DNA from: Mytilisepta virgata
Lineage: Eukaryota; Mollusca; Bivalvia; Mytilida; Mytilidae
Reading direction: 5' to 3'
NCBI GenBank assembly: GCA_028015205.1
Contig: CM051514.1
Span: forward strand, 31,202,150 to 31,266,149
Length of the DNA stretch: 64,000 bases
Shown here: positions 8,101 to 64,000 of the stretch, piece after piece
Numbering within the stretch: position 1 is the stretch's first letter
Layout of the letters: each line of letters starts with the position of its first letter
Notes under the pieces: generated by a model
The model's database searches: none
Told to the model about the DNA's origin: nothing
Seen by the model: the letters and a program-made list of their open reading frames with translations, nothing else
Position numbers and translations under genes: made by a program

Positions 8101-9688
8101 TATTCGAACTAAAACGTTTACAAAAAGAAATGTTAAGGCTATTGTTATTATAGAATAGAGAATGGAAACGGGGAATGCGTTATTTTGAGCAGGTTGAATA
8201 GTTTGTTAGCAAAGGTCCTATATCTGATCTAGTGTCTGTTTTGTGCCTTTTTTGTACTTCCAAGTAAATTCCAGTTAAATGGCTATAATGGTCAACAAAC
8301 CTGATATGTACTACATGTATTTTCAGAAGTTTAAAGTTTGTAAATACGTGATGTCCAAATCATTGTGTTTTGAATATCTTCAGGAATGAAATTATACCTT
8401 AGCAATTAGAAGACCTAAAAATTTAAAAGTTGCGGGTATTTTCAATAGTACGTTTTCTGACGAGATTAGCCAACACATACTATGTATGGCTATACTGTGT
8501 AACATGCGTCCTCAAATATCTAACGAATTGCAGTAAAATGAGCCTCCAAAGCTGTTTTGTAATGTTTTGAGACAGTTGTTAAAATTTTTTCAATACATGG
8601 CTTCCAAATAATAAGCCTCCACCGAGGATGCACGTGAAAATGGAGAATACAGTTAGTGAATATGAAAAAACCTCGGGTCAAAGGCATGTCATCACCTACT
8701 CCGTGTGCTTGCGTACCCGAATGCGGCTTTCTACATTATTTGAAGATTAAGGCCCGTTTACACGATCAACGTGTTCTGATAGTGTAAACTTCAATCATTT
8801 AGATAATTTAGTATAAAGTACGCTTAATCTTTGCTTTAATTCAAGGCGTTAAAATATAATAAGAAGTGTAAAGTTGTCTTCCTCACATCTAAGATCAATA
8901 AACAATTAATGACGTCTTAAGTGATGTTTCTTAATTAAGTCAAGGTTCTGGAAAGTTCTGTTGAAGATGGTATGTTCTATACAATCCCTCCTTTCATCAA
9001 TGTCGAAAGCTGTTAATATTTTTAACTGTTTTAAATTAGAGTCTACAAATGTCGCCTTAATTCTTACTTGGCTTAAATTTTTCTTAGAACAACAACGAGC
9101 AATAAGAAATTTCTTGATATATGAAGCGTACGATTTTAAACAGTTCGATCAAAGTAACAACGATTTTATTATTGTTCTTCAACTAAAAGTCACTTCCAAA
9201 CCTTCAACCGTGAACGAAATAAATCTCGCACCTATAAATTCAAAGCGATAAATGATGTAGGAAGTTGTAAATTTGTCTTTGTATAATGCAAGGTCGATGA
9301 ACAACGAATGATGTCAGAAGTGATATTAAGTTTCACTGAAATCCGAAAGTCAAAAAATTTTCTTGTAGTTTTGGACAATGAGTAAAGTTAAGACCACATT
9401 TCAAGCATTAAAATATGAAAGAAGTGTATGGTGGATTAACCCTAGACAAACTCCATCATGTATGTGGCAATAGTTTAAGCTATTCATGTATGTGGCAATA
9501 GTTTAAGCTATGGATCAGCATTTACCGTTATTATACTTCAGTATGTTTTTTCTATATAAAAATCGAGACACTAATTTTACTATTTGTTTACCGGTGAGTA
9601 GTTTCCAAAACTAGTCACGGTAAATACTGACTGGTGATTAGTACTGGAAAATATTGACCAGTAAAGTGTTTCGGTATAATAAAACACT
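5159..9688. mobile_element. Large fold-back element (copy B)
   Basis: The left arm (about 5159-6668) and right arm (about 8196-9688) are inverted copies of each other, about 1.5 kb each, traceable over landmarks such as TATTATACCGAAACAC at the outer ends and CTTGGAAGTACATAAAA at the inner ends. The core (6669-8180) lies between them and matches copy A. Divergence is modest, with small indels. No transposase is visible; the 96-codon frame at 8961-9251 lies inside the right arm and is not convincing. The structure resembles long-TIR or fold-back transposons, but the class cannot be named without target-site duplications or an autonomous relative. Confidence 0.82.
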
Positions 9689-13166: not shown

Positions 13167-15109
13167 CTAATATTTATACTCACACAACATATTTTCGCAG
13201 ATGTATTTGTATGTTTCTGAGCATTTAGCGTCTCCCCATTGTCCTGTACGGTAATGAATATACACACAATCTTGATTACCTCCACTATTGTTTGGTTGTC
13301 CATTCTGATAATTTGTATAATTGACAAGTTCTTGGTCATATGTCCACCTGTATTCTCCTTCTATCAGATCTGTCAGTCCAATCCAGTAAGAACTGGCTAC
13401 AATTTCAATAAATGATACAACTAGATATAAACTCTTGTACAGTAACTTAAAAAAATGGAAATATTTTGTTTCAATTATCATTTTTCTGTTATTCTATTTT
13501 TGACTATTTTTTGAAGTTTTTGTTATTTTATATACATGTTAATATAAAAAGCTAATGAGATAAGTTGAAGTAAATATGGTTTTTTTACGGATAAAGTTTG
13601 AATGTGAATAGTTTTAAGATTATCTTACAACTTATCCCATTCAGTTGCGACTTCACCCACGAATCCTCAGACGAGTCATCAATTTTCAGTAAATATCCTC
13701 TTATTTGGCGACATGTTCGCTGAAATAAGCAATGTTAATGTCATTATTTTGCACCCAAAAAAGTTAGGTTTGATTTTCTGCTTGAAAATAACGTAGACTT
13801 TATTTCGATTCATTATTCTTTATGTCACGGAGTGATCCTACAGCTGGAGAATTTGAATTATAACCGATGACCTGTATGTGTAAAGTACATATATTATAAA
13901 CGGGTCATATATAAAGTTCTTACCTTGGCGTAACGTTATAATAAAATGTATCACAAAATACCGAAATAAATTTGATGCACTGTATGGCCATTTCGTTGAC
14001 TGATAACTCATCAGCAGTGCTCAAGTTCAAAATGTTGGAAAACCGGTTAAAGATATAATGAAGAATTAATAAGCACAACCATCAAAAACCAAAACAATTG
14101 AAACAAACAGGAACTGGTTAACAGTGTCACCATGAGCAGTTTCATATAGTCTAATATACATGTAGGTCATTACTGATGTAACGAACGCAATGAATGATAA
14201 ATGAGATAATTGAAAATGTATATAATAACATACAAATCATTGCATTTCTTTACGGTCCTATGTTTTACATTACGGGTTTCAATATTTAAATTAGATAGGG
14301 TAATACCCATTGAATTCCTTTCTGCACGGACGATTTCGGTGGTCAGTATATACAGAAAATTTAAGGCGCGCTTGACCAATGCGACGTTCGTTACAAGATA
14401 GTAAGGACAAAGTAGTTAGTTTGGTATACTATTCCCCACCCACCCACCTCATATAACCATCTTATATGTTACTTTCTCATTTCTTATCGACTTGTGTATG
14501 GTGAATTTTGATGCATTTATGTATGGCTGATTGTATGTAGATATGTTCAATATGTTAAACTAAATGCAATCTTGTAGCAAACGCAAAACCCTGTACTGTG
14601 TTTGGTTTTTCTACGATATCTAAATTTTATTTTCGGAGGAGTGAAACGAGGGAGAAAATAAAATAAAATAAGAGAACCAAATAACTAACGGGAATATATA
14701 TAGACGTTAACAATCTAACCCAATTATGAATTCTTTTTTCTGTCATTACACAAATGTATATAAAGCACACAAGAGGATATAAAATGGCTGAGGACAAATG
14801 TCATGCATGTTTTCGGCAAGAATAAAAATAGACAGTTGTCTTATAACATGTAAAAGAATTCTTTACAATATGATCTCAAACCAAACCATTAAAACCAAGA
14901 AAGATTATACAAATGCTCTCCTTGTTTACATGTTACTAAGTTTTCTCAGATGCCTAAATTGCTTTCCTCGAAACAAATACAATTGTAATTACAGTTCTAT
15001 AATTGCGTGTGTCCGAATATGGTTTTGAGGATATCACTTGCTCAGTACTTCGACACTAACACTAAATGATAAATCAAAAACTGTAAAATTTTGTGAAATC
15101 TTAGGTTAT

Positions 15110-45300: not shown

Positions 45301-46875
45301 TTAACCGCAAAATTTAGGTTATTAAAATTACGAAATACCAAAATTCTGGGGCTATAATTCCGCTTAATATGAAAAATTTAATTTAACAATTCATATGGTT
45401 ATCTCAGTCCAGGCAATTACTGAAAACTGTAATATTACATAAAAATGTAATATTACACAAATTTGTAATATTACTGTTTCTAGTAATACAATGATTTTTT
45501 TAAGGAAATAAGGGTTATCTCCCACTTGTTCATGTTGTTGCTACAAATGTATTACTTTTATTACAGGAAAAAAATAATTATTTCTGGTTTATTGTTCCTT
45601 TAAAAACTAATTGTGGTTAAAGTAATACAACAACAACAAAATCATTAAATTAATTTTTTTTTTTAATTAATGTCATTGTTAAACTTGATATTGAAAGCTA
45701 AAAAATAAAATAGATAATGCATAACATATTGACAATTAAATGAAAGATTTTCATTAATTTCCCGTCATATGTTCACTTTTAATTTTTTTGTTTGGTTTAT
45801 TTTTGGCAATTTACCCTAATTTTACAGAGGTTTCCCATAAATATTGCAAAATATCAAGAAGAAACACCCTTCACAATTTTAAAGAAATTTTTATGGGGAC
45901 TCTACCACAGAATCAGTTTTCATAAGAGCCTAATTGTTCATTAAAGACATATTATGTGGTTTATGTATCCTGCTATTTTAGGATTATTTGAATCTACCTG
46001 TAATTACATATTTGCTTTAAATAATTTTTTTTAGCCAAAACGTGGCATACCACTTCTTTCAAAAACTATACATTTCATTTTATAATGAAATGATGTAAAA
46101 AACAATAAGTTTTTTCAAACCAAATCTTATTCAATAGTAGAATTAAAACACTTATCTAATAACTGTATAAGAGCCAATGGTAGAGTTTTGTCTTGTAGCC
46201 AATCAGAGAACATAACGAGATAACTGATAGTTTTTTTCATAATACTAACTAATTTTCCTTCAAGTTTTGTATACATTTCTGTTATCAACATACTGATAAG
46301 ATGATGACAGAAAAATGATACAGACCTGCTAGACCATTGTTTAAATTCATTTTACACACAAATGTTTGCAGAATCAGCAAACGAAAACTTGACAATTTAT
46401 CTGAAATGAAAGATTTTGTTTTCTAAATTAATAGCCTTAAATGACACTTCTGGAATTTATTACTACATGTATGATGTGCCATGTGTAAGAGACCACCACC
46501 TACAATTTCTGCACTCTGTTATCAGGGTGAAATTCACATCTGTTGATAACTAAAAGACAAGATCAAATACAGAATATACTGGTAATTTATTTAAAGTTAA
46601 TTAAATTGTCAGGCTGTGCCCTCCTATTTAATGAACATGAGGTGAATTACCAATACTCTGTAAGTTTAGATAAACAGTTGTTCAGAAGCATATTATTATT
46701 GGAGAAGCAAATCAATACTGATTTTTTTCACCAAATATGTTTTGTGTTATGGGCTTTGTTAAAGTATGCCTTTGGTCAAATTATTTTATAAATAAATGCA
46801 ATGAAATAGTCAGACATTGACCTTGTCTAGGCATTTGCGAATAAAGATAAACAATTCTGTGGATTCTTGGTTTAT
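42330..46875. other. No firm gene; one possible first exon
   Basis: A CTTT microsatellite lies at about 42555-42576. At 44272-44295 an ATG followed by seven codons (MGKFTRTT) ends exactly at ACG/GTAAGTCGG, downstream of a CG-richer stretch (44030-44240); it could be the first exon of a plus-strand gene, but no second exon was found. Three GTAATATTAC palindromes lie at 45429-45474. Confidence 0.3.
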
Positions 46876-46877
46876 GA

Positions 46878-49800
46878 CTATTCATAATTTATTTCAACAA
46901 TTTCTAATTCTGACTGACTTTTGTATAAGTCGTCAATTTTGTTTTTATTGTCCACTGTCCATAACCGTCCATTTGCCAAGTTATGAACTCGAACTTTGCA
47001 GAGCATGGCATTGATATGTGCTATTGCAGAGTCTTCTTTACTTGGCCATTTAAAATTTTCACCACAAGGGTGCATATATTTTATTGAGGCCCAGTCCTTG
47101 TTGAATCCTTGGATGGCGGTCACCACTCCTGGGTACCATCGATCCTCAAATGCAATGGCATAATATGCATTTATTTCCCATGTTTCTGTATCTGGAAGAT
47201 TAAATGGGTAACTCGTTAATTCCATAAAGCGGGTGCTTTATTTGTAAATTTTCACATTTATTTCATATTCATTTTCTTCCTTTTCATGGTGTGTTATTTT
47301 ATACAATGATTAAATTATTAAGGATGTATTCTTCTGATGTTTCAGTCTCGTTGAAATCAAGTTCAGGAATTATTTCCAAAACATGTGTTACAAGTGGAAA
47401 ATATTAATGAATTCAAAAAATATTATAATCCAACTAAACTCTGCAAAAAAATTATGTACTTACAATAAGTAGTTTTGTAGTAATAAAAGTTTCAAATTTT
47501 ATAACCAATCTGGTCAGTGTTATCAGCCAAAATGTTGAGAAAATGGGTGAGGTTACAAAGAAATGATTTTACAAAAAATATGTACATCCCATATCAATAT
47601 TTTCTTTTTAAAATTCTTTAATATGTATTTTTTCAATCATTTATAACAAAGAAGTTGAAACTATATGCTCTTTGTTCTAAAAAAATGAGAAATTTACAAA
47701 ATTAACTGCATGGTCATTTTGACACGAAAAAACAACAAAATTTTATAAAAAATTCTTATATTAGCATGTACCTATAGTTTTTTTGAGATAAATTTATTCA
47801 GATTGGTCCACCTTATCTTTAGGGAAAGTATGAAAAAAAAGGAACTATTTTTTTCATGATGATAGCACAAAATGGGTAAAAATTGATGAAAAATGGGAAA
47901 ATTATCAAAACTCGGCTACTTTCAAATGACCGTAGCAACCATATGATTTTTTCTTCATGAATTAATTTCTTACAGTCATATAAACCCAAAAAATCAGGTT
48001 AAGAAAAAAGTTTAATACTAGAAATTTTTTGCTCCTCAGAGGTGTACATCCTTAAGTCTGTCAGTCATAACAATTAACTGGTTATTAATCTATTTGATTT
48101 GTTTATGTTAAATAATCATCTGTTACATTATCAGTTATATCTCATTGGTATCATGGTTGGTTGGAAATTTCTCTATATTTCATTTGTTATTGGTTAGTCA
48201 TCTTTATCATTTGTTTATTTTGATAATATTTCAATGACTGAAGAATATATTATTTAGAGAAGAAAATTTCATCAACTTGGATTTAACTTATTAAATCTAA
48301 ATCATCAGCTGAATGACATATAAATAGTTATTCATTAATACATGTGGGCTCACCTTCCTCTGTAGTAAGATCATTATTAATTTGGTTCTTTGTATTATCC
48401 TACAAAAAAAAATATGTATTTGATTTGATCTGAAATGGAACCCAAAATATTAAAGCTAAAAACTAATTACATGTAAACTTTTTTTTTTCAAATGTACACA
48501 AATGCATGTAAGAATAAGAGAATAAAAATTTTATTAACCAAATTAGAGCCCCAGGAGGGCATATTAACATAGAAACAATATTTTAATAAACATTTGCTGA
48601 ATAATAATGTATAATATAAACAAACTATACATGAACAGTGTATATATAGTTTACATTTGGAAAAATACAAGAATAGTACACTACTGTTATATATAATAAT
48701 GATCACTTACACTTGGGATGTCTTCTGATACAACCGGGTCAATGGGTACACAAGAAGGTTCTTGATCTTTATTCTTAGTATTTCTTCGCTTCTTTTTTTC
48801 TATCAAAAAATGTATTAAAGCACATTTGTAATTAAGTTAAATTTTTCATATGTTTTTCAGCGAAAGTGCTTTTATTTCTGTTGATTTTATAAAAATTATG
48901 TGATCTGACATAACTATCTTTCAGTGCACAACTAAATTGTCTGCAAAATTTATAAACTTTATAACTACTTAAAAAGGAAATAAGAAAAAATAATGTATGA
49001 AAGCATCTCTCAACAGTTTAACTATTGTTGTAATATGTTACAATAAAATGTTGTAAATTCCATGCTAAGTTATTAAGTAATATTTAGAACCAGTTATTAA
49101 AATTATTTATAGTAGTTTTCTAGGGAAACATGAATACCTGGGGCCTTAATGATTGGCAGTTCTTGATCATCTCTTTCTGTATCACCTATGAAAACAAACA
49201 TGTAAATTAATCCTTATCATGCCTGGAATCTGAGGAGGCTATATAAACTGTAAACCTTTCTATCTTCTATTCAGCTGTATTGCCTTGTGGTCTTTATACC
49301 TTCTAATTTGATGTGAATATTTGAAGGAGATTAAGAAGTAGCTATATATTGAGATCTTTTAATTCTATAGCACATACATGTATCTGATGTAGGAATTTAT
49401 ATAAAAAAAATCCTTTGTTTTCGGTAAATGTTTCTGTCTTTCAAACATTTATTTTTATCTGTTATTTTATTAAGTTCAATCTCTGCAAATGATTTTACCA
49501 AGCTATAGCTTTAGTTACATAATACCTTATAATAACTTAATGGTAAAACAAAAACTAGTAATTAAATGTACTTACCTGTACAATTGTAAACATGTAATGA
49601 TATCTATATCAATATATGCATTTTTTTAGCATTTAGTGTTTTAATGAATGAATCAATTTATAATAAAAAACTATTCATGAAATTAATAAAATATTACTTT
49701 TTTTTCTTCTAATTTTCATATTATTAATTTAAATCATAAATGACTAACATATTTTTGTTGGTCCTTTAAAATTTTACAATCCCCCCAGTCAAAGTGCATG

Positions 49801-51543
49801 TGGTATCAAATTATTTTAAGTACTTACTTAAATGAACCTGTTCTTCTTGATTATCTACAGATATATCTTGTGTTTCAACCTGAAGAAACAAATATATATA
49901 TATATGAAAATTAATTTGACAGAAACATAAGCAGTTGTCATTAAAATGTTAAAGTGTTAAACATCCAAATGCCGTCATTTGAAACAACTGTTAACAGGTC
50001 ATGTATACATAGTTTCTGGCAATATTCAAATGGCTTTCTTGCTCAAGTTCAGGTTGTTCCAGAAATAAATATATAGTCAGAAAGTACATTTGATTTTACC
50101 CTGACATGTATAAAATTTTAATTATTTCCATCTTTCTTAAATAATCGCTATTAATAAAATTTTAATAGAAGTGTCTTCTGACCCCAAACTACAATTCATT
50201 CTGAAACAGCGCTGTGCTTGAAAAACCCAATAGATATATCATCCTTTAAAGGAAAGAAAAATACAAAAAAAAAACAAAAAACTTTTCATTACCTCTGCAT
50301 CATATACTTCATCATTTTTGTTGAAATTTTCATTTGACTGGTTCTCATTTTGTTCCAAAGGCTCTGTATCTGAAAATAAGGAAAATGAAGTGTTATTTGA
50401 ACAGAGGCAAGTAGAAAAAGTACTTGCACTACTTCAATTCAATAATATTAAAGGCTTATTAACATATATGTAACAATTACTATTTTATCTCATTATCTTA
50501 AAAAGCTTATATTTTTAACAAACTTCTTAGATATGACACAAATACTTTTTACAATGGATTTTTTTCAAAATATTGAAATAAAATTCTTACCATCAATTAG
50601 CTTTCTTTTAGTTTTTTGTCCTGTTTCATCTTTTGAAGAACTGGCCTTATTAGTCTTTGCCCTTGACCTCTTTGGCTTCCGTTGGCCCTTGTCTATCTTC
50701 TTGTTTGTAGATTGTTGTGATTTTTTGCTTGGTGAGTTCAACTCTAAAGGGCAAAAATTTAACTTTAAAATGAAAAAAAAACTTTGAGTTGCTTGTAAAA
50801 TTTAATGTGCTATTAGAGTCAAACAGGTAAATCATTAAATTACATTAATATTGATTTTCCAGGAAAATTAATAGGCTTGCAATTTTAATGTTTTAGACAC
50901 AGGAGACCCTCCTCCAAAAAAGTATAAAGTCATTAAAGGATGGACATGCATGTTGAATTCAGTTACTGGATAATATCTTGGCTTTGATCAATATTCTGCA
51001 ACAAAATAATTTCTTAAACTTTTTTTTTCATATCTCCTATCATGTTTTTGGGGAAATATTTACAGAAATGTATTTTTGAAAGAATAGAGAAAAAATAATT
51101 ATATATTTTAATTTGAAACACAAACCTATAGAAAAGGAATTCTCCTGGTCTTCTGAAATGATAGTTGCTGTCTCCAGCATCTCTTTCTGTCTACTTGCAA
51201 TTTGTTTTGAAACACCTGGTCCACATGAGAGTTTAGAAGGTGTCAACATTTGAACAGGCACTGGCATATTATTTTTAACTCTTGGCAAATATCCCTCATG
51301 AATGTTGGAGATGCGCTTCATTTCCGCATTGCTTAAAAGAGGTTTTCCTTCTTTTAATCTTTGTAAAAATTCACCAGAGCCACAAAACTTTATTAATTGT
51401 CTCTCTTGGACATCATCTCTTACACAAAAAACCACAGACAAGTCTATAGTCTGAAGGTCTGCAAGTCTTTTAATTTGCTTTGTTATCTGTTTAATGGCGT
51501 TGGATTTTATACGCCGTTCATTGCTCCTTTGTGCATTAAACAT
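46878..51543 (-). CDS. Nuclear protein with C-terminal Tudor/SH3-like domain, eight exons
   Basis: Exons: 51543-51126 (the open frame extends to an AG at 51628), 50743-50591, 50369-50293, 49879-49828, 49185-49138, 48799-48711, 48399-48354 and 47191-46878. All seven junctions keep phase, giving 398 residues from the first ATG. Exon 1 is a charged, globular-looking segment (LADLQTIDLSVVFCVRDDV; FCGSGEFLQRLKEGKPLL). Exons 2 and 6 carry basic, nuclear-localisation-like stretches (KGQRKPKRSRAKTNK; KKKRRNTKNK). Exons 3-5 and 7 are short and acidic or asparagine-rich, probably disordered. The last exon (about 295-398) has YYAIAFEDRWYPGVVTAI and FKWPSKEDSAI, the pattern of Tudor-like barrels found at the ends of several animal transposon-related proteins. 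It lies 1.1 kb downstream of the RAG1-N-like frame, on the same strand. A TTAA element sits in its last intron. It may be a host gene or a partner ORF. If exon 1 is internal, 5' exons are missing. Confidence 0.75.
47322..48051. mobile_element. TTAA-flanked element in the last intron
   Basis: 730 bp bounded by TTAA at 47318-47321 and 48052-48055. The ends GGATGTATTCTTCTGATG and CTCAGAGGTGTACATCC are imperfect inverted repeats, sharing the GGATGT start of the MITEs at 18356 and 24649. Internal sequence is AT-rich with no coding frame. It probably belongs to a related non-autonomous family. Confidence 0.75.
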
Positions 51544-51628
51544 TTCATCATCAGAACAATGTTGTTTTTTTTTCCCAGGCTTTAGTTTAACTGTTTTTGT
51601 ATTATCACTTATAACTTCAGTTTCACAT

Positions 51629-52684
51629 CTATATAAAGAAGCAAATCAATATGTAGTATAAATTTAACTAGAGATATTTCCATGATTTAAAATAAGAAAT
51701 GAGAATACTATAAGTTAAAAAAAATACATGTATAATTTCAATCTCTAATTTTCTGATCATATACTAATTGAATTTGATATTCAAAACTTTGTTGAAACAT
51801 CAATTGATTGTACACATTTCTTTTTCAGACAAAAAGTTATATTACATGTAGTCCTTCAAAAATTAATATTTACATATTATGCATAATAATTACATAATGA
51901 AGACAGTATTCATACATTTGACAACAAACTTAACAAACAATGACTCATGATATTTACTTTCATATTTTCTAAAAATAATTTTTACAAATCACACCTAGAG
52001 AAGAATTAACAATTTTGCATTTTACATATTTGACCTCTTGTTAAGCCAATTTTGCCAAATTAAAATGAAAAGTTGATAAATTCATTAAAATGTGCATTTT
52101 GGATGTGTGAAAATGAAGGTGTTTCATTAAAAGTGATAGACAGAAAGAGGCAACAATTCAATTTTTCTTTATGCAAATACACATTTACCATTTAAAAAGG
52201 GAAAATGAAAGCCTGTTTTTCTTTAATAAGACGGTGAATGATTTTACATCAAAATGATGATAGGGTAAACAATGATTTTTTCAAATATTTATATATTTTT
52301 TCCCCAACTAGCCTTCAGCCATAAAAATGGTTTAGATACAACCAGCATTAAAGGACACTTTAAAAAATAAATCACAGTTATATATAATATTAAAAAAAAT
52401 CATAATAATATTACTTTTAGCAATAATATATATATATGCATGTGAGGAATATGTTTTACACTATGCATTATAAAATTATATAACAGTTTAAAAAAAAAAA
52501 AACTAATATCTAATTATGTATGATTGAACATATTTTATGAAAATACATGTGTAATGAAGATAAGGTCCTATTTTTCGGCATAAATTATGAATGAATTTGT
52601 ACCAAAATCTGTAAATGCAATAAGGTATACATGGTATATATAGAGATAGTATGTAAATAAATATACAGAGCGAAAACCATGTAT
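51629..52684. other. Intergenic or intronic gap between two minus-strand genes
   Basis: AT-rich, with no open frame above background. If the two flanking genes belong to one transcription unit, this is an intron; otherwise it holds the 3' end of the upstream gene and the promoter of the downstream one. Confidence 0.4.
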
Positions 52685-55600
52685 TTATGAATCAGGTATT
52701 GAAGTTGAATTTGCAGTTACATCCTTTAGTTCAAAATAGAGAGTTAGATATGTGTCTTTATTTGTGTTTGTGTCATTTAAACTTTCTATAATAGCCAAAT
52801 AATGGGTTTGGAGTTCAACATTTTCTGATATTTTTTCAATCAGTTTTTTTATATTATTTTTCAGCTCTGCTTTAGTCATCTTTTTGTGGTGTAGTTCTTC
52901 TTCATCCTCTGTAATAAAGACCGGTCCACTTGATTTTTCTATTATTATTCCTAAAATGCTAAAGTCAATTTTTTCCTGTCTTTTTTGTGTAGATGTTTCT
53001 AGAAATTTTACAAGATTGGGATGAAGTTTTTTTCCAATAACAGACCGGTGGTCATCAAGCATAGCAGCAAGATGCTTCCTAAGGACAGGACGAAAGCTAG
53101 TTATAGCATTGGAAATATCAATTAATTTTGTTCCATAATCAGATTGTTGTCCTAATCCAAGAATTTCTGTTAATTTTTCTTGAATTGTTTCAAAAAATTT
53201 AAGATTGCAGCAAATGTTTCTCCATGTTTCATCAGATGGCACACTTCCACTTGGCAAATACTGTTTAATTGCCTTGTTTTTTTCTTCTAAGATAAAATCC
53301 AGATCCTGTCCTTTTGACTTGTCTCCACTTACAGAAAAGGATGTGTTGTTATCCCAGGATGCTTTTACTTCTTCTGGCATAAATTTGTACTGAATGGAAT
53401 CAAATAATTCAATGTTTTGGTAATGTGGATGACAGCGGCCATAAAATAGTTCCTTTAAGTGGAATTTTGCACTGTGTACCAGTTGGGCATTATTTCGCCG
53501 AATTCCCATTCGAAAGTTGATGAGAGCCTGAGAATATCTGCATACTTGTAAATGGAGATATGCATGGTTTGGATTTTGTGCTTGAAATTGTTTATAAAAT
53601 TTGAAATAATTTTCAACTGTGGGTTCATCATTGGTATTCTTCAAGCTTCTTACAAAAGGTATGACCATTTCTTTTAAACCAGCAGTATGGAATGTGAGTA
53701 ATAGCTGCCAAGCTACATGATGGTCTTTACATGTTTTTGCAAAGTGTTTAGCATTTTCTGAGGTAAATCCCATGAGCTCACACATTTTTTCTAGGTAAGG
53801 TATCCAGTTCAACTCAAAAAATGCTTTTATAGCATTCATTTCATAATGCCCTGCTCCTATCCGCATGTATACCCAATCAAACTCCCTTGAACAGGATGGT
53901 GTTGAGTTCTGATGGCAAGATTTATGATGGTCCTTGTATAACTTTCTAGAGGTAAATGGCTGCCGGCAGTAGTTACATAGAACAGATTCATCTAAAATTT
54001 TGTGGTATAAACTGTGAGGTCTGCCATCACAGCAAATAAAAGCCCAACTCCGTTCACTTCCTCCATATCTTTTAATGCCACAATTCATGCCAATATGTCT
54101 CATTACAAGAGAGACTGATTCATTGCTGTTTGGGTTGAAAAATGCAGGCATACCAACTGTTACAGATGTAGGGTTTCGATGATTTGATGGAATATGCTGG
54201 TATCTTGAATATTCATCTTGGTTTGCCTTGTCACTTAGTGAAATTTCTTGTGTCTTTAAAGCTGTTTTGGTATTTGTGGATGGCAAGGTGCTACAATGAT
54301 CATCAGACTTTTTTGTTCTTGCCTCTTTGATTCCTTCTCTTTTCTTGCATCCTTCACAGACAAGTTTCCTTCTTGCATTTTCTGTTCCACATAATGTACA
54401 AATTAGAATGTCTTTCCTTCTTTCTTCATTGTGGGTATTTTTGTCTATATTATCCAGAAAAGCATTTTCAGATGCATTCGTTGTATGCTCTTCTACAACG
54501 GTTTCAATTGCATGTTTAATGAAATGATATAGTTGTTCATAATGCAGTTTTTCAAGATCTTCATATTCATGGGTGTTTTGATCTCTTATTTCCTTTATTC
54601 CCCTTAAAAAATATTTTTTGTCCTTCAAAATTTTTTCTGCATGGAGATTTCTTTCTTTTGGGTCTTTTGTTTCAGCAAGTTTAAGTTTTTCATCAAAGTG
54701 AGACAGTTTTAACCAGTTTTTTGGCTTAAATTCATCCTGTGTTTGAATGAAAGTATGCATGTTGTCATCTGAATTTATAGCAGCATATATTATTGATGTG
54801 ATGACAGAGGACTTAGACTTTTGGTTTGGAGATATTCCTCTCTTATATGCCACAACTTGTTCATTGTCAAAGGCAGCCATAATAACTCCAGGTGGGCAGG
54901 GAGGAGCAGTTGTTCCAGATTTAGAAATCCATTTTTGCAATGTACTGTATGTACCACTTGGACTTGTCTTGCTTAAAAAGTCAACAACTAATCTACTACT
55001 TGTTTTGGAATACACATAAAGTGAAAGGAGGAATGAAATAGGAGAAACAAGTTTCTGATATCTTAATGCATAAATTTGTTCAACTATCCTACATAGAGCT
55101 ATTTTCAGATTTTCATTTGAAAGAGCTACTGAAAAGTTTGTAAATCCTTCAATAAACCGTGTTAATGGCACATTACGTTTTGACAGCCAACTCTCGGCAT
55201 GGAATTTTTTCAAAAATGTATGATCAGTATACTGCTGTGAAATGTTTTCAATGTCATCTTTTAAACACTCTTCTTGGTCTTTTCCAATTTCAAACATGAG
55301 CTCAGACAATTCTTCATTAGACAAATGTTTGACAAGTTTCAAGAGGAAGTTTTTTCTTTCATTTAAATTTAAGGTTTCAAAATCAGAAATCAATGTTTCT
55401 GGTAAGCACTGCCTTATTTCTGTATCATTTGAATCTAATGTTGTCTGTGATACCAAAGTTTGGTTTACATCATCAATTATGCCACTGCACTTTGTATGAC
55501 AATCATTGTCTTTACCAACCTCCCTACTTGATGTCTTTGTTAGAATAAGAGGAGTTTCTGTTTTGATACATTTTAATGGTATAATATCAATTTTTTTCAC

Positions 55601-56068
55601 TCCTTGTCTTTTTCTTTTTCTACCACGGCATGTATTTATAGAGCAAATGTTACATTCATCTGTATGAGGGCAAAAATTCACGGTCTTGATACTTGTTTTG
55701 AAGGTGTGCTCCTGATTAAGAGCTTTTAAATTTCTATACTTCAATAAAAGGAGTTCATGTGATCTACAAATAGCAATCGGGTGAATCGCTGGTTGATCCA
55801 AAGTGACGTCAACTTCAAAAATTTCAGATAGCTCCACGGAAAATTCATATTTCAGACGAGATGACTTGTGTAAATCTAAACTTCCACATATCCTGCAAGT
55901 CTTTTCAAGTGCCTTTAGATGTTTTGTTAGTGGTGGTTCACTGGAACAAGAAATATTTGGATGACAATGGTAGCACAAATTTAAGCTAAGGTGGAAGGTG
56001 GGAGGGGGGTGGGGGGGGGGGGGGGGGCATGTAGGGCAATTCAGGAAATAGCTTTTCTGGCAAAGCAT
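52685..56068 (-). CDS. RAG1-N-terminus-like transposase-type protein
   Basis: 1,127 codons without a break. Residues 58-156 follow the vertebrate RAG1 N-terminal zinc region: TCRICG at 57-62, EIFEVDV then IHPIAIC (to C101) and H104, then CPHTDECNIC (133-142) and CRGRKRKRQG (147-156), like RAG1's HTPSCDIC...RGLKRK. Later come a likely active-site strand GVIMAAFDNE (D401), a zinc-ribbon-like CTLC/CEGC (557-574), a C2H2-like finger CNYC...HH...CH (698-719), GHYEMN (740-745) and DLDFILEEKNK (922-932), which could hold further acidic catalytic residues. This layout suggests a DDE-type transposase body; the residue assignment is inferred. N-RAG-TP elements of the mollusc Aplysia carry such an N-terminus. 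The first ~30 residues (CPPPPPHPPP) come from a poly-G/C tract and are probably intron: acceptors TTCCACCTTAG and TTCTTGTTCCAG follow, so 5' exons may lie upstream. No terminal repeats were found by eye. Confidence 0.85.
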   Translation of the reverse strand: MLCQKSYFLNCPTCPPPPPHPPPTFHLSLNLCYHCHPNISCSSEPPLTKHLKALEKTCRICGSLDLHKSSRLKYEFSVELSEIFEVDVTLDQPAIHPIAICRSHELLLLKYRNLKALNQEHTFKTSIKTVNFCPHTDECNICSINTCRGRKRKRQGVKKIDIIPLKCIKTETPLILTKTSSREVGKDNDCHTKCSGIIDDVNQTLVSQTTLDSNDTEIRQCLPETLISDFETLNLNERKNFLLKLVKHLSNEELSELMFEIGKDQEECLKDDIENISQQYTDHTFLKKFHAESWLSKRNVPLTRFIEGFTNFSVALSNENLKIALCRIVEQIYALRYQKLVSPISFLLSLYVYSKTSSRLVVDFLSKTSPSGTYSTLQKWISKSGTTAPPCPPGVIMAAFDNEQVVAYKRGISPNQKSKSSVITSIIYAAINSDDNMHTFIQTQDEFKPKNWLKLSHFDEKLKLAETKDPKERNLHAEKILKDKKYFLRGIKEIRDQNTHEYEDLEKLHYEQLYHFIKHAIETVVEEHTTNASENAFLDNIDKNTHNEERRKDILICTLCGTENARRKLVCEGCKKREGIKEARTKKSDDHCSTLPSTNTKTALKTQEISLSDKANQDEYSRYQHIPSNHRNPTSVTVGMPAFFNPNSNESVSLVMRHIGMNCGIKRYGGSERSWAFICCDGRPHSLYHKILDESVLCNYCRQPFTSRKLYKDHHKSCHQNSTPSCSREFDWVYMRIGAGHYEMNAIKAFFELNWIPYLEKMCELMGFTSENAKHFAKTCKDHHVAWQLLLTFHTAGLKEMVIPFVRSLKNTNDEPTVENYFKFYKQFQAQNPNHAYLHLQVCRYSQALINFRMGIRRNNAQLVHSAKFHLKELFYGRCHPHYQNIELFDSIQYKFMPEEVKASWDNNTSFSVSGDKSKGQDLDFILEEKNKAIKQYLPSGSVPSDETWRNICCNLKFFETIQEKLTEILGLGQQSDYGTKLIDISNAITSFRPVLRKHLAAMLDDHRSVIGKKLHPNLVKFLETSTQKRQEKIDFSILGIIIEKSSGPVFITEDEEELHHKKMTKAELKNNIKKLIEKISENVELQTHYLAIIESLNDTNTNKDTYLTLYFELKDVTANSTSIPDS
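56011..56027. repeat. Poly-G tract at the 5' end of the long frame
   Basis: Seventeen G in a row, preceded by further G-rich sequence from about 55993. It encodes the proline run of the minus-strand frame, so any length change alters the reading frame upstream of residue ~20 and makes the annotated start unreliable. Confidence 0.9.
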
Positions 56069-57537
56069 TATTTCAATCCAAACAATATCCTTCTCCGTTC
56101 CCCCAGAAAATCAAATGAGTGTTTTATACTGTTGCAATATAACACATGCATTCCAATGGTAACATCAAAATATGGTTGAACAGCTTATCTATTTTGTATT
56201 TTAAAAATCAACTGACATTTATCAACAGTTTTGGATCATCCATTTCATTTACACATATGTTTATATTCATGTATTTAATAATACTTATAACTATCACATG
56301 CTGGAATTCTTATCAGTCATCTTTAACCAAGTATTAATTGAAAATTATATAATCATGATAATACTTCCATGTTGATTTTGACAGATGTTTATGCTTTAAA
56401 AAAGTAGATTATTGATAAATCAACATAATAAACATTTTTGTAATTTTTTCATAAAACAAAATTAGAGTTTTCATTGCTTTAAGCAATTTTCCCTCTGCAT
56501 GAGATATTTAAAAAAATCAAATTTCTACAAAATGCTTCAAATGAATATTTATTTCATATTGTTTTGACCGTAAGAAATTTATAGTCAAATTTTAAGGAAA
56601 TATTTAAATACATCTGTCTGATGTCTAAACTGTTTTAAAAAAATATTTCATGCATCTTAAAAAAGTGTCCTGTTTCTTACAAAGGAGGAATAAAAGAGCA
56701 CAAACTTCTTTAAAGATCTAATGTCTTAAAACAATTTGATAAACACAGAAATGCAGTCAATGTTGATAAAATTTAGGTTAGAAATAAATGATCTCTCTCG
56801 AAAGTCACCAGAACTGGGATGGGTCTTCTGTTACAAAAGTTTTACAAATTAATGTGATCAAATTAATGTAATCTGTCACTTGATAATGTTATCACCACAG
56901 GATGTTATATTCCTTCAACTGTTTATAAAGTTCTAATTGTTTTTGTAATTAGATCACTGATAAGAACTGTCTATGGCATGTGTGAACATATGAATAAATC
57001 AGACATCTGGTATTTGTTTCACAGTCAGTATCATAGTCAGTATGGTACTTCTATAGTATTATTAATATCAGAAATGAACAATTTTTTAGTTCTAGGAAAT
57101 CTTTAAAACTTTTCATTTAGTTTTATTTGAAAATTAGAACTAAATAGTAATTCTAGCCAAGAAATTAAATTTACCTGAATAAAAAGCCTTTTACCCAATG
57201 CTCCATAATAAATATACAATAATATACAATTAATTTATTACTTCCATTCTTTTAGCTATACACAAACTAGAAAACTGACAATGTCAGTAAGGATCCCAAA
57301 TAAATGATTAATTTTGATACAAACAAAACTAAACATTTAATAGGTTCCAATGTTGATACCATTGGAAAAAATCCATATATTTTCTTTGTAAATAACATAT
57401 TAGTATCTAGTGCTTCAAAATTGGTATTTTTAGAATATTTAAAGCAGAAGTATCATGTTTAACACATGTTTAAGAGGCCTTTCCTTAATTCAATACATGT
57501 AAATTTTAATTTAAAGGCAGTTTTAATTCAGAATCAA
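56069..57537. other. No gene seen
   Basis: AT-rich DNA upstream of the RAG1-N-like frame. Missing 5' exons or a promoter would be expected here or beyond, but none was recognised. It ends in a 16-base poly-G tract (57538-57553). Confidence 0.4.
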
Positions 57538-57642
57538 GGGGGGGGGGGGGGGGAATTTTAAAATTGTATAACAAAACTTGCACAGTGCAAGATCACCCAT
57601 AGGCACATCAACTTCGATGCCTAATTCACTGCGTGGGACACA

Positions 57643-58240
57643 TTTTTAGCTCACCTGACCCAAAGGGTCGTTTAAAGATCTTATTCTCTGAAACCACTAG
57701 GCCAATTGGGACCAAACTTTGGTGGAATGTTCCTTGGGTGGCCCCCTTCCAAATTATGTCCAAGGAGCCTGTATCTATGTCCATCTTGACTGGCAGCCTG
57801 GAACATAGCTGTTAAGTTCCAATTGTCTCAATAGTTTCAACAAGATCATTCAGTGAACTTTCCCATTTGGTCATATGTAAAACTAAGTTCTGGCAGCCAT
57901 CTTGGATGGTGGACAGGGTCAACGGATATAATTCTGAAAGAGGACCAACTGAGGACCATTGCTGCCAATTCTTCCAAATGACCAAGTGGTTTCAAATCTT
58001 TAAGTAAATTTCCCATAGCGTCCTATGTTCGGCTCTTGCTGTCATCTTGGATGACGGGTGGGTTCATTGGATATATTGATAAAAGAGGACCACCTGAGGA
58101 CCATTGCTGCCAAGTTTTGTCCCAATTGGCCAAGGGGTTCCAGAGCAGAAGATTCAAATGTGAATTGTGGACGGACGGACAATGGACGCCAAGTGATGAC
58201 AAAAATCTCACAAGGCCTTTTAGACCAGGTGAGCTAAAAA
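57643..58240. mobile_element. Element with TTTTTAGCTCACCTG terminal inverted repeats
   Basis: The left end TTTTTAGCTCACCTG (57643-57657) and right end CAGGTGAGCTAAAAA (58226-58240) are exact 15-base inverted repeats. Inside are diverged units with ACCAAACTTTGGTGGAATG, GAGGACCATTGCTGCCAA and CGGACGGACAATGGACGCCAAGTGATGAC. This is a widespread non-coding family in bivalves; partial copies lie at 32951 and 38395. Confidence 0.85.
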
Positions 58241-59336
58241 AAGGGGGGATGAATTTTAAAAATCTTCTTCTATGAAACTACAAGGCCAATTATAGCAGTA
58301 ATGGTCCTTAAGAGGTTCTCTTTTAGAATAATTTCGGATGACCCAGATTGTTAACCAAGATTGCCACCACAGCCGAACTTAGTTTCAGATAGGACCCTAA
58401 GGGAAAGATCATTTAAAAATCTTCTTGTCTAAAACCACTTAGCCAGTTGGAACAAGACTTAGCAGTAACGGTCCTTAGATGGATCTCTTTTAGAAATGTG
58501 TCTGATGACCTGGACTGTCAACCAAGATGGCCAACACACCGAACTTAGTTTAACATCAGCACCCTATGGGAAATTCAATAAAAAATCTTCTTGTCTGAAA
58601 CCACTAAGCGTTAGAACTAGACTTGGTAGCAATGGTCCTTAGATGGTCCTCTTACAGAATTGTGCCTGATGGGCCTGTACTGTCAACCAAGATGGCCCCC
58701 ACAGCCAAACTTAGTTTCACATAAGGCCATATGGGAAAATCAATTGAAAAATCTTCTTGTCTGAAACCACCTGATCAATTGGAACCAGATTTTGCAGCAA
58801 TGGTCCTCAGGAGGTCCTCTTTTAGAAATGTGTCCGATTTCATGGATTGTTAACAAAGTTGGCCACCACAGCTGAACTTAGTTTAACATAGGACCCTATT
58901 GGAAATTCACTCAAAAATCTTCTTGTCTGAAACTAATGAGCCAATTGGAACTAAAGTTGGCAGCATTGGTCCTTAGATGGTCCTCGTTCAGAATTATGCC
59001 CGATCACCCATATTGTCAACCAAGATGGCCAATACAGCCGAACTTAGTTTCATATAGGACCCTATGGGAAACTAATTTAAAAATCTTCTTGTCTAAAACC
59101 ACTTAGCCAGTTGGAACAAGACTTAGCAGTAGTGGTCCTTAGATGGTTCTCTTTTAGAAATGTGTCCAATGACCTGGACTGTCAACCAAGATGGCTGCCA
59201 CAGCCGAACTTAGTTTAACATAGAACTTTATAGAAAAACCAGCCAAATTGACTGCAACACTTAAATTTCAAGTCCTGTTCAAGGTGAAAAGTTAAATCCA
59301 GGTGAGTGATATAGGCTCTTGATCTTGAGAGCCTCT
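58241..59336. repeat. Tandem array of ~166-bp units
   Basis: At least five units in direct order, each with AATCTTCTTGTCTGAAACCACT, GCAGCAATGGTCCTTAGATGGTCCTCTT, GATGACC...TGTCAACCAAGATGGCC and CCGAACTTAGTTTAACATAGGACCCTATGGGAAA. Spacing between the first landmarks is about 166 bases. The units are related to the inside of the neighbouring element, so the array probably grew from it. It ends with GCCTCTAGTTTT. Confidence 0.85.
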
Positions 59337-60059
59337 AGTTTTGTTGTTGTTAGGGGGTTCAGAAACCTATAGCAGCTCCATTGTTACTCCAAAGTTCAGG
59401 TCGAGAATGCTTTCATGTGAATATATTGGAAATTTATCAAATTTCAACATTAGGGAATATATTTTAGTTTGAGGGGGGAGGGGGGGAGATAAGGTTGTAC
59501 TTCCAGCTGTATGTATAAATTTTTTTCTGAATAATTCCCCAACGATAATATAAAAATAAGAAATTCTCCATCCAAGAATTCATAAGAATGAATTGATGTC
59601 AAATAAATTGCTTCTCTGAATTGTTTTTTATCTTCTAAATTCACAACTCTTCACAGTACAAATCCCATTATCAGATATTACTTTTTAATAGTTACATCTG
59701 GTTTGTCTAACTACTTAATTATAAGTATATCCTGGCTTTGATGACATGTAACCAATAAAATAGACCACCTGTTGTGTCATCTTAGTGCAACATCTACTAG
59801 ACATTGATATTATTCATTAATTTGTAGAATTAAAAGCCCCCCCCCCCTCCTCCTTCTGTATTTCTGCTTTTGATTCTTTCTGATAATAACCCAAAAGATC
59901 AAACTAAAACCTACAATAACAAGAGTGAACCCACTACATGTCTCGCATGCGTATGCACAGGGACACAGAATAATGATTATCTGATACCCGACATTTTGCA
60001 AAAGAAATTTTGGTCAAGATCAAAAGGCAGGTGTCATACCAACATGTATCCACTAAGAA

Positions 60060-60775
60060 CTATCTATTGACGTAATATGGTGGGTCTAGGTATTAAAGTT
60101 GTTGAAATCTCCAAAATGTGACAAAGTCACTCAACCATGAAATTGAGGTCAAGGTCCAGTGACAAGTGTCAGACTGGCATGTTCACATCAAGAAAAGTCA
60201 ACAGACCAAATACAGTAGGTCTAGGTATTACAGTTGTTGAAAAATGGACTTAATCAAGAAACTTGGATGAAAGTCATTCAACCATGAAATTGAGGTCAAG
60301 GTCCAGAGACAAGTGTCAGACTGGTATGTACCCACCAAGAACTATCAATAGACCAAATACAGTGGGTCTAGGTATTACATTTCCTGAGAAATGGACTTAA
60401 CCATGAAAAAGTGACAAAGTCAATCAAAGATGAAATTGAGGTCAAGGTCCCATGTACCCACCAAGAACTATCTATTGACCAAATTTGGTGGGTCTAGGTA
60501 TTACAGTTTCTGAGAAATAGATTTAACAACGAAAAAGTGACAAAGTCACTCGAGCATGGAATTGAGGTCAAGGTCCCAAGCCAGGTGTCAGACTGGCATG
60601 TCCCACTAAGAACTATTTATAGACCAAATAAAGGTATAACAGTTGCTGAGAAATGGATTTAACCATGAAACTTGGACGCAGATTTTAAATTCATGTTTAT
60701 GAAGTCAGTGAACCATGAAAATTGGGTCAGGGTCACAAGACAAGTATACTGCGGCAAACTTATATGATAAGCTAC
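60060..60775. repeat. Tandem array of ~130-145-bp units
   Basis: About five units with the landmarks GGTGGGTCTAGGTATTA (near 60079, 60216, 60362 and 60489), GAAATTGAGGTCAAGGTCC, AAGTGTCAGACTGGCATG and ACCAAGAACTATC. Units vary by indels; the last ones decay. No open frame crosses the array. Confidence 0.85.
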
Positions 60776-62020
60776 CTTGTGGACCATAAATCATAATGTT
60801 AGGTATTATATGTGCAAAGTTATTAAAGTTTTACAAAAGTCTATGCTGCTGCCGGAAAGTAATACCTATATCTCGCTTCCGCGACTTTTCGTCACCGGCG
60901 AGACAAAAATCAAAAAAAGTTTCCCACATTGACAGCAAAATCCAATTGTCAATGACTGTTAAATTTTATTCTAAAAACCAAAACAATATCTTATAGATTT
61001 TGATTTAGCTTTTAATAAAAGGTATACTTGTTACCTTAAAGTAAACTGTTTTGTTTTAGACAGAATGAAAGAATTTAATGCTTTTACTTTAGTACAGCCT
61101 GCACATAAAAATTCATTCTGCCAAGTAATATGCCCGAAAGGGGGGGGGGGGGGGGGGGTTGTAGGGGCACTTACTTTGTAAGCAGTGGTAGGGATGAGCC
61201 ACTGAAATAGGTCACTATTTCATGCACCATTATATGACAAGGGTGAGAAATTCAGATTACAAATATCATTATGTTGAGATTATCCCTTGCTTGATATTAT
61301 CTTAAGTATCTGAAACTAATCAGTTGTCAGTATTTATTTTTGATCTGGATAAACCACAGACATGAGAGACAAATGCATCAGATATTTGTCAAACCAATTT
61401 ATCTCTGTAGATATCTTCCCATGTGTATGTGGAATTTCCACTGATGCTAGTTATAGACAATGATAGATGCTTTTAATCTGTTTATTTTGACATTTGCACT
61501 TATTTAACATTATAAAGTTTGTATAACAATTATAAAAAGGAATTCCATAGTGTCTGAACATCAAGAAGATGTTTATTTCCATTAAATGGGCTCACAAGGA
61601 GCATAATACAAAATAATTTATCATTAAGAGGGGATTGTAATGTAACTTTTTATCAGTTTTTCATTTTTATAAAACTTGTTAATAGTCATTAGACTTAACA
61701 TTTTTTATCAAGTATTTATTATTTGGTAGATATTGAAATAGTTATCTCTTAATAATGAAAGACATAAAAATGGTTAATAGAGAAGTCAAAGAATGGCAAA
61801 TTTTGCTTGTCAATCAAGGTCTATTTAATTTGTTTTATGAAAAATTTAAATATGACAGTGTATATATTTTTGAAAAACAACATATATGAAAAAGGTGGGG
61901 TACTTGATGTCTCAGCTGTTCACCCCTACCAAAGTAAGATTGAAGTACTCCCTCCCCCCTCGAGTTAATATAAAGAGCTAACATACTTGTGTATAGTGTC
62001 AACACAGTACTAAGTGTACT
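60776..62020. other. No gene seen; poly-G tract
   Basis: AT-rich DNA with a 19-base G run at 61140-61158 and no convincing frame. Confidence 0.5.
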
Positions 62021-62025
62021 GAATG

Positions 62026-62310
62026 AATGGATGGATGAATGGCTATTAGATATCCAGCAGCAAGTTTAATTGCATATTTAGGACTAAAACATTTTTTTTT
62101 ATGAATATGCTTTCAACTAAAAAACAGCTTGATTGGATTTTAAATTACTGGTTCACAGGTAACAGTCAACAGGGAGACATGTTATCCTGCATGGACACAT
62201 TTCTTCTCTGGCCTGTCCAGTCTTTACTTTTACTCCTACTTGTCATGTGCTATTAAAGCAGAGAAGCAGAAAATACCAATTTCCAAGTCTTTTGTTTGAC
62301 CTGGCGGTAT
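62026..62310 (-). mobile_element. Degenerate SINE
   Basis: The minus strand shows the SINE in decayed form: tail GATGGATGAATGG side at 62031-62045, GGGAGACATGTTATCCTGCATGGACACAT, TTTTACTCCTACTTGTCATGTGCT and AGCAGAAAATACCAATTTCCAAGTCTTTTGTTTGACC. The tRNA head is lost or scrambled. This is the oldest-looking copy of the family here. Confidence 0.65.
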
Positions 62311-64000
62311 TATACTAGATACAAGAAATGTACACAAAGAGACAGGGTTAAAACCATAAAAGATATACAAACTTTGTTCTGTTTTGGGTTTTGTTTTGTT
62401 TTTTTTTTACTTGTAAGGGGGGGGGGGGGGAGAATTCAAAGCAAACTTTTTAAAAAAATAACAAGCAAAAAAAAATAAATTTAAAAACAAAAGTTAAATG
62501 GGTGGGGGCAGTCATAAATTCCCAGAAAAAGCCATTACATAAAGCCCTTATCCTGAACATGTTTGGAATATATGCCACTGGAAATAAGCAAACATTAATC
62601 AATCAATTCCTACACAACAGCTTATGTTTAAGACATCTTCAAAACTAAATCATATCATAACAAAGATCTATATAGAAAACAAAGTTATCTCTTTGGAATT
62701 GACGGTTGCATTCTGCAGACAAATCACCTACAGTTTTGGATCCCTGGACCAAAAATGTGAATAAACATATATATTAGGGATGTCAACGAATACTCGAAAG
62801 ATCAAGTAGTCAAGTGCAAAATTCCCAAAATTTGGTCCAAAGTCAAGTTTCAATCCCCATAATTGAGTGATACCTTTTCTGAAACTATTTACATGTACCT
62901 ATAAAATGATTAAAGAAAAATCATGTCTTTCGCATCATTTTTTCGTAAAATTGCATTGAAAAGTTTGTAGTTAAAAACAGTGTTAAAAAACATCACAATG
63001 ATTTCTGGACCTACGACCGGCATGGATACCAAAATGTGGACTTCCAAACTAAAAATGGCCCATGAATATAAACACACCTTAATCGTCACATAAACACAGG
63101 GTTATTTTTTACTCCAGCTATCTAAAATTGAATTTAATTGTGCAACACCTTTCATATTTGAAAAATCCACCGGGGCCAAATTGCAAAAATAAATTCCTAA
63201 CTGTTAATTGCTACCTGAATTTACATTCACATATCCTTGGGTGGATTTCCTAGTTTCCTTGTTTAGCTATAGCTTAAGATTTCGTAGTCAAATCTCATCT
63301 GAGGTACAAGACCTAATTACCATTCTGAATTAAGACAGAATTAAACTCCCTGTGGTGAACTTTGCACAACTAATTTTTAGACACTTTATTGGTTTCTGAT
63401 GATGTTTATACAGTGATCAATAATTTTTGTTTTAAAACTTTTGTAGATGCCTTGATTGTGCATTTACTTCATATTATCATTTAATTACATTAATTATTAA
63501 TAGTGTACTTTAAACGATTAATTATATAAATGATATGGGGCTAATCAAATAAAAAACTACAAACGCATGGAAAAGAAATTTTACACTAATTTTGATATTA
63601 TCTGAGTACTCAAGTATTTATTTCACAAACAATTGCAATCCATAATATACATACATTCATTGAAGTATTAATCTAAATCAGGTGGCCTTAAATAAGAAAT
63701 TTATGTATAAATAACTACGCCAATAACCTATTGAATATTTTTTTAATTGTTATAAATTCAGAATTGTTATTTGGATTGATTATGTTGAGAAAATTGAGAA
63801 AATTAATTATTAATCATTACAATGTCAGGGAATCCTGCATAAAAATTTGCCATCAAAATTCTAAATACAAGTTTTCATTCTTCTAAACCTTTCTCATTGC
63901 AATTTTTTGCAACAATAAAAACATTGCGAAATATTTCTGAATTAACAGTAATATAAAATATTCAACCAAAAATAAATAGTTCATGTATTATCAAATAGTG
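62311..64000. other. No gene seen
   Basis: AT-rich DNA with a 14-base G run at 62417-62430. I see no exon, RNA gene or structured repeat. Confidence 0.5.

Follow-up and report, generated by a model that had tools for sequence, protein, structure and literature searches.

A 64,000-nucleotide stretch of the genome of the bivalve Mytilisepta virgata (assembly GCA_028015205.1, contig CM051514.1, positions 31,202,150 to 31,266,149; here, the window) contains the larger part of what is very probably a 19.7-kb autonomous DNA transposon of the cut-and-paste type. The element resembles N-RAG-TP and Chapaev, appears to have been active recently, and encodes a transposase in which a RAG1-like N-terminus precedes a DUF6589-like core. 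It has terminal inverted repeats (TIRs), a target-site duplication (TSD) of fixed length, several copies, and a transposase frame of its own; the ends, the 5-bp TSDs, and the near-identical copies at several loci were observed directly. An earlier note, made from the sequence of the window alone, had described one long frame joining a RAG1-like N-terminal region to a transposase-type body. Its main claims were right, and the finding proved larger: a 19.7-kb element with defined ends and TSDs, a second gene, and, probably, a first exon shared by both genes. No earlier description of the element was found in the one open-access literature library that was searched.

Borders, copies, and recent movement of the element

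The whole element spans 19,668 bp (C7:31247554-31267221), of which positions 45405 to 64000 (minus strand) lie in the window and 1,072 bp more lie beyond it. These limits are the borders that it shares with the C14 copy and a copy at a second C7 site, to which BLAST identity is 99.5 to 99.7%; among the four close copies, identity extends far past the transposase frame, and both element borders are sharp. The TIRs are 70 bp long, identical at 65 of 70 positions (E = 2e-26), and start CAGTCCAGGCAATTACTG. The right TIR (positions 45405 to 45474, minus strand) ends ...GCCTGGACTG in gene orientation, and its partner lies outside the window (C7:31267152-31267221). Comparison of the flanks identified the TSD AGATA (gene orientation) at positions 45400 to 45404 (minus strand), the second copy of which flanks the left end, outside the window. 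Perfect 5-bp TSDs surround all three copies that have both ends: AGATA in the window, TACAT on C14, and ATGAT at the second C7 site. The copy on C1 keeps its right end and has one stop in the frame; the sequence covered at this locus contains nothing to the left of element position 8932. Across the genome, the TIR pattern occurs 15 times with at most two mismatches, compared with 0 occurrences of the reversed control.

The element has moved recently, because the window and C14 copies differ at only 58 of 19,634 aligned sites (0.3%), plus 40 gap columns; eight of the differences fall in the transposase exon. Recent activity, proposed in the earlier note, is thus borne out by the low divergence between these copies, their different loci, and their TSDs. 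Codon changes among the close copies are few (synonymous/nonsynonymous, 5/3 between the window and C14, 1/1 between the window and the second C7 copy, and 4/4 between C14 and the second C7 copy) and therefore say nothing about selection. The M. virgata genome holds at least 57 matches to the frame, counted piece by piece with 41 of 129 candidates scored. Among the matches listed, four are almost identical to the window frame and four are near-full-length relatives at 37 to 38% identity; the rest are shorter or more distant.

The second C7 copy (L010) carries a 5.8-kb insertion at about element position 8172. The insertion has ends CAGTCAGAGATCCCACTTGTACAAGT, a 5-bp duplication, CCTGT, and no frame of 100 codons; it is perhaps a nonautonomous relative with the same kind of ends.

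A RAG1-like N-terminus joined to a predicted DDE transposase body

The reported frame occupies positions 52685 to 56068 (minus strand), encodes 1,127 amino acids, and matches the coordinates in the earlier note exactly; it is the sole frame of at least 200 amino acids in the window that is initiated by a start codon. Every N-terminal motif quoted in that note is present, in the same order, and the N-terminus follows the pattern CRICG ... HP..C ... PH...C..C. Residues 50 to 156 (positions 55601 to 55921, minus strand) make up a RAG1 N-terminal-like zinc domain, or "Chapa domain." Within it, residues 81 to 156 match Pfam family PF12560, the importin-binding N-terminal region of RAG1, with 35.3 bits (E = 1.2e-8; curated cutoff, 23.3 bits). 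In a sequence search of the PDB, the single sequence found RAG1 chain 21wb at residues 80 to 153 (E = 1.3e-4). The match strengthened to E = 1.1e-11, and took in the CRICG part, when the query was a 16-row family profile (the window protein plus 15 homologs); full-length RAG1 chains were found at E = 4.4e-11, with significance limited to the N-terminal region. At E ≤ 0.01, the PF12560 match extends to 11 of the 16 family members. The transposase N-terminus is, by these sequence comparisons, a genuine RAG1 N-terminal homolog, with a match far above chance, as the earlier note had proposed. That note had also seen no RING or RAG1-core signature in the remainder, and neither is among the three Pfam families listed for the window protein at E ≤ 1.

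Residues 292 to 985 (positions 53114 to 55195, minus strand) were assigned to an RNase H-fold DDE domain by fold comparison and a weak match to DUF6589. The predicted fold of the body resembles those of the P element, Hermes, Tn5, and RAG1 transposases. Three acidic residues, conserved in all homologs that cover these positions, form the putative catalytic triad: D401 (positions 54866 to 54868), present in all 15 rows with a residue there (the remaining row has a gap); D681 (positions 54026 to 54028), present in 16 of 16 rows and immediately following a beta strand of the model; and E928 (positions 53285 to 53287), also present in 16 of 16 rows and following a helical insertion (all on the minus strand). 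Of the acidic candidates proposed earlier, D401 and E928 fit this triad and E743 does not, the second Asp being D681. Judging by the predicted models, from which the triad positions were derived, the body is a DDE transposase; the claim of a transposase-type body thus stands on the predicted fold and residue conservation.

The match to DUF6589 (PF20231) covers residues 875 to 976 with 25.9 bits, below the curated cutoff of 27 bits. At E ≤ 0.01 the family is matched by seven of the 16 members of the alignment, and three relatives (P0001, P0004, and P0011) bear PF20231 as a precomputed label, with P0011 scoring 32.9 bits. On the other side, P0001, despite this label, matched no Pfam family at E ≤ 1. 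The Pfam name carries no function, and the term DUF6589 was not found in the same literature library; the present results suggest a transposase function for this family, listed as unknown in Pfam.

The 15 homologs came from a search of 5.8 billion proteins, in which the named ones belong to Mytilus edulis and Mytilus trossulus; a second, profile-based protein search added three shorter proteins. Comparison of the window frame with those of L005, L007, and L008 by the NG86 method gave dN of 0.69 to 0.72 and dS of 1.9 to 2.7, which points to purifying selection between distant family members at dS values near saturation (of the 10 pairs computed, 4 gave no defined dS). One M. trossulus gene model (P0003) departs from the transposase alignment before its end and runs into a trypsin domain, which is probably an annotation join.

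A second gene and a probable shared first exon

Downstream of the transposase, on the same strand, lie exons of a second gene that spans the element, with nine predicted exons in all, GT-AG borders, and an unbroken frame of 444 residues. Exon 1 was mapped with P0016 to element positions 321 to 373, near the left end and outside the window (C7:31266849-31266901). Exons 2 to 8 occupy positions 51126 to 51628, 50591 to 50743, 50293 to 50369, 49828 to 49879, 49138 to 49185, 48711 to 48799, and 48354 to 48399, and exon 9 (positions 46878 to 47191) encodes a Tudor-like module, named after the source's label on P0017, and the stop (all on the minus strand). A query of the two longest exons joined found 15 homologs (P0016 to P0030), which also support exon 2; the named ones are from Mytilus. 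The M. edulis homologs of gene 2 (P0024) and of the transposase (P0001) are each listed with a 706,333-base contig, taken to be one and the same. The genome has 21 matches to gene 2: 12 in the element's four copies, 5 no more than 6 kb from other TIR matches, and 4 at other places. A locus on C3 (L032, C3:25417500-25422600) has a frame longer than 1,160 residues, in which a similar Tudor-like module forms the end of a different body; the module may be common to several mobile elements.

Given the position of exon 1, the transposase lies within the first intron of gene 2, in the same orientation. Exon 1 ends in phase 2, and phase 2 is what both the gene 2 acceptor (element position 13445) and an acceptor ahead of the transposase (element position 9133, window position 55940) need. 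The predicted transposase exon 2 (positions 52685 to 55940, minus strand), supported by a CAG acceptor and a GTAAGT donor that are both in phase 2, holds nearly the whole protein; spliced to exon 1, it would encode 1,102 amino acids and lose residues 1 to 43 of the reported frame. Because exon 1 can splice in frame to either gene, these 43 residues (positions 55941 to 56068) are probably read-through intron. The extent of the frame given in the earlier note holds, and translation probably does not begin at its ATG (position 56068). A TATA sequence is located 46 bases ahead of the exon 1 ATG, beside the left end, and we infer that one promoter and alternative splicing serve both genes.

Taken together, sequence and predicted fold suggest how the element might work. 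A single promoter beside the left end, with its TATA box, would yield a transcript with a short first exon of 18 residues, to which splicing would attach the transposase exon in one case and the gene 2 exons in the other. The transposase would bind the CAGTCC inverted repeats, probably through the zinc-rich RAG1-like domain together with a helical region; its RNase H-fold active site (D401, D681, and E928) would excise the element and join it to target DNA with a staggered cut; gap filling would then produce the 5-bp repeats. The gene 2 protein could be an accessory factor, perhaps one whose Tudor-like end connects the complex with chromatin.

A related family without the RAG1-like head

Three of the six genome matches at query residues 619 to 1114 (L029, L030, and L031), at about 23% identity to the window frame, define a second family. 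Their common body, about 6.8 kb long, has sharp borders, ends of the CAGTCC type (CAGTCCGGACCGATCGCTG), and 4-bp duplications (AAAT, ATAG, and AACT). Their protein retains the D, D, and E residues and has a different N-terminus, without the CRICG..PH..C pattern. CAGTC-type ends thus accompany this kind of core in two families, and the RAG1-like domain is a separable head. A pair of RAG1-headed copies on C3 and C6 shares sequence that begins AACAGTCTTGGAC; no right end was found for this family, which may likewise start CAGTC.

Relation to known transposons

The features assembled here indicate a mode of action like that of cut-and-paste DDE transposons in the fold class of the P element, hAT, and RAG1. 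Membership among P elements or ordinary hAT elements was rejected, the similar fold notwithstanding: those elements have TSDs of 7 to 8 bp, the window element has one of 5 bp, and its protein matches no P or hAT family in Pfam at E ≤ 1. Transib and RAG-like ends begin with the heptamer CAC.., and membership in this group was likewise rejected, because the ends of the window element (CAGTCCAGG) are not heptamer-like, no RAG1 core is recognizable by sequence, and no convergent RAG2-like partner is present. The 5-bp TSD of the three complete copies does agree with Transib and RAG-like elements. For hAT elements, excerpts of PMC12730594 give a TSD that is usually 8 bp, and 5 bp in hAT5.

Sections of PMC7204232 describe protostome RAG-like transposons with convergent genes and, almost always, 5-bp duplications. 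RAG-like, TransibSU, and ProtoRAG elements, as presented in parts of PMC7204232 and PMC4411706, likewise combine RAG1 N-terminal zinc motifs with a DDE enzyme, a 5-bp TSD, and two genes. The window element differs from them in having no RAG1-core or RING family match, in ending with CAGTCC rather than with sequences like recombination signal sequences, and in having two genes that run in the same direction; furthermore, Pfam searches at E ≤ 1 gave no family for the gene 2 homologs P0016, P0019, and P0023, and hence neither kelch nor PHD. The two-gene design thus differs from that of RAG1/RAG2.

The affinity to Chapaev is harder to judge. The element might be a plain Chapaev, or N-RAG-TP, member already filed in Repbase, in which case its DUF6589-like core would be none other than that of Chapaev, and novelty would be confined to the size and the second gene; we give this not quite an even chance, and it is compatible with the autonomous transposon favored here. 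In the family alignment, a Cys pair follows D681 by 17 residues in 16 of 16 rows, and an H..H pair precedes the Glu by 52 residues in 8 of 16 rows (the window protein not among them), which speaks for such a filing. However, a conserved His pair nearly adjoins the Cys pair, about 16 residues past it, so that all 16 rows have a local C2H2-like arrangement soon after the second Asp; in the window protein this His pair lies about 214 residues before E928, whereas RAG1 has its conserved His pair some 20 to 25 residues before the Glu. In parts of PMC12730594, the defining features of the CMCT clade are C(2)C and H(3-4)H motifs that lie between the second D and the E, mostly CA..TG ends, and TSDs of 2 to 5 bp; the 5'-CA..TG-3' ends of the window element and the 4- to 5-bp TSDs found here lie within that range. 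According to excerpts of PMC4411706, the Chapa domain, that is, the N-terminal part of RAG1, occurs in TransibSU, Chapaev, and Chapaev3 and is not known from any further element, so that Chapaev and Chapaev3, like the window element, have this domain on a DDE transposase. The comparison with Chapaev is one of descriptions, and no Chapaev end sequences were found in the available parts of PMC4455052 and PMC3630058. N-RAG-TP of Aplysia, likewise a mollusc transposon with a RAG1 N-terminal-like protein, consists entirely of such sequence according to a passage of PMC8355894. The window element has, in addition, a full DDE core, ends and TSDs, a length of 19.7 kb, and a second gene, and these may be differences of description.

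Conversely, the DUF6589-like core may belong to a superfamily outside Transib and Chapaev, with the RAG1 N-terminal domain exchanged between unrelated transposase cores. There is a fair chance of a separate transposase superfamily; the combined proposal is tentative and, in our estimate, somewhat less than evenly likely. If the core does lie outside Transib and Chapaev, the published statement that no other known element has the Chapa domain would be contradicted. If the domain has been exchanged, RAG1 would itself count among several fusions of this kind, and the head would sit here in a large element with two genes, one for the transposase and one for the accessory protein, that have their first exon in common. 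The question bears on how RAG1 gained its N-terminal zinc region, an origin that becomes directly testable; likewise, since the element offers unbroken genes, defined ends with TSDs, and recent near-identical copies, what the RAG1-like head contributes to transposition is accessible to experiment.

Two further explanations deny the frame its role as the transposase of the element. At 19.7 kb the element is large, and frame and element are associated by sequence alone, so that the frame could be a passenger moved by another transposase; this is improbable, as the element has no other long frame (the next longest, stop to stop, is 201 codons) and the second family combines similar CAGTCC termini with the same D/D/E core under another N-terminus. 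Still less credible is a domesticated host gene with a RAG1-like N-terminus. The frame is indeed long and intact, and dN lies well below dS between distant members, but the TIRs, the TSDs, and several near-identical copies at different sites speak for a mobile element.

Additional observations

Within the second family, L030 contains a small reverse frame (L030:7175-7543, minus strand) that by eye has the look of a PHD-type zinc finger and has no Pfam match at E ≤ 1. Inside the window element, between exon 1 and the transposase, positions 57671 to 59237 hold a degenerate array of units of about 166 bp, with inverted partners nearby. Finally, the left insertion flank in L026, immediately past position 1077, resembles by eye a host coding exon followed by GTAAG, and this copy may have inserted into a host gene intron.
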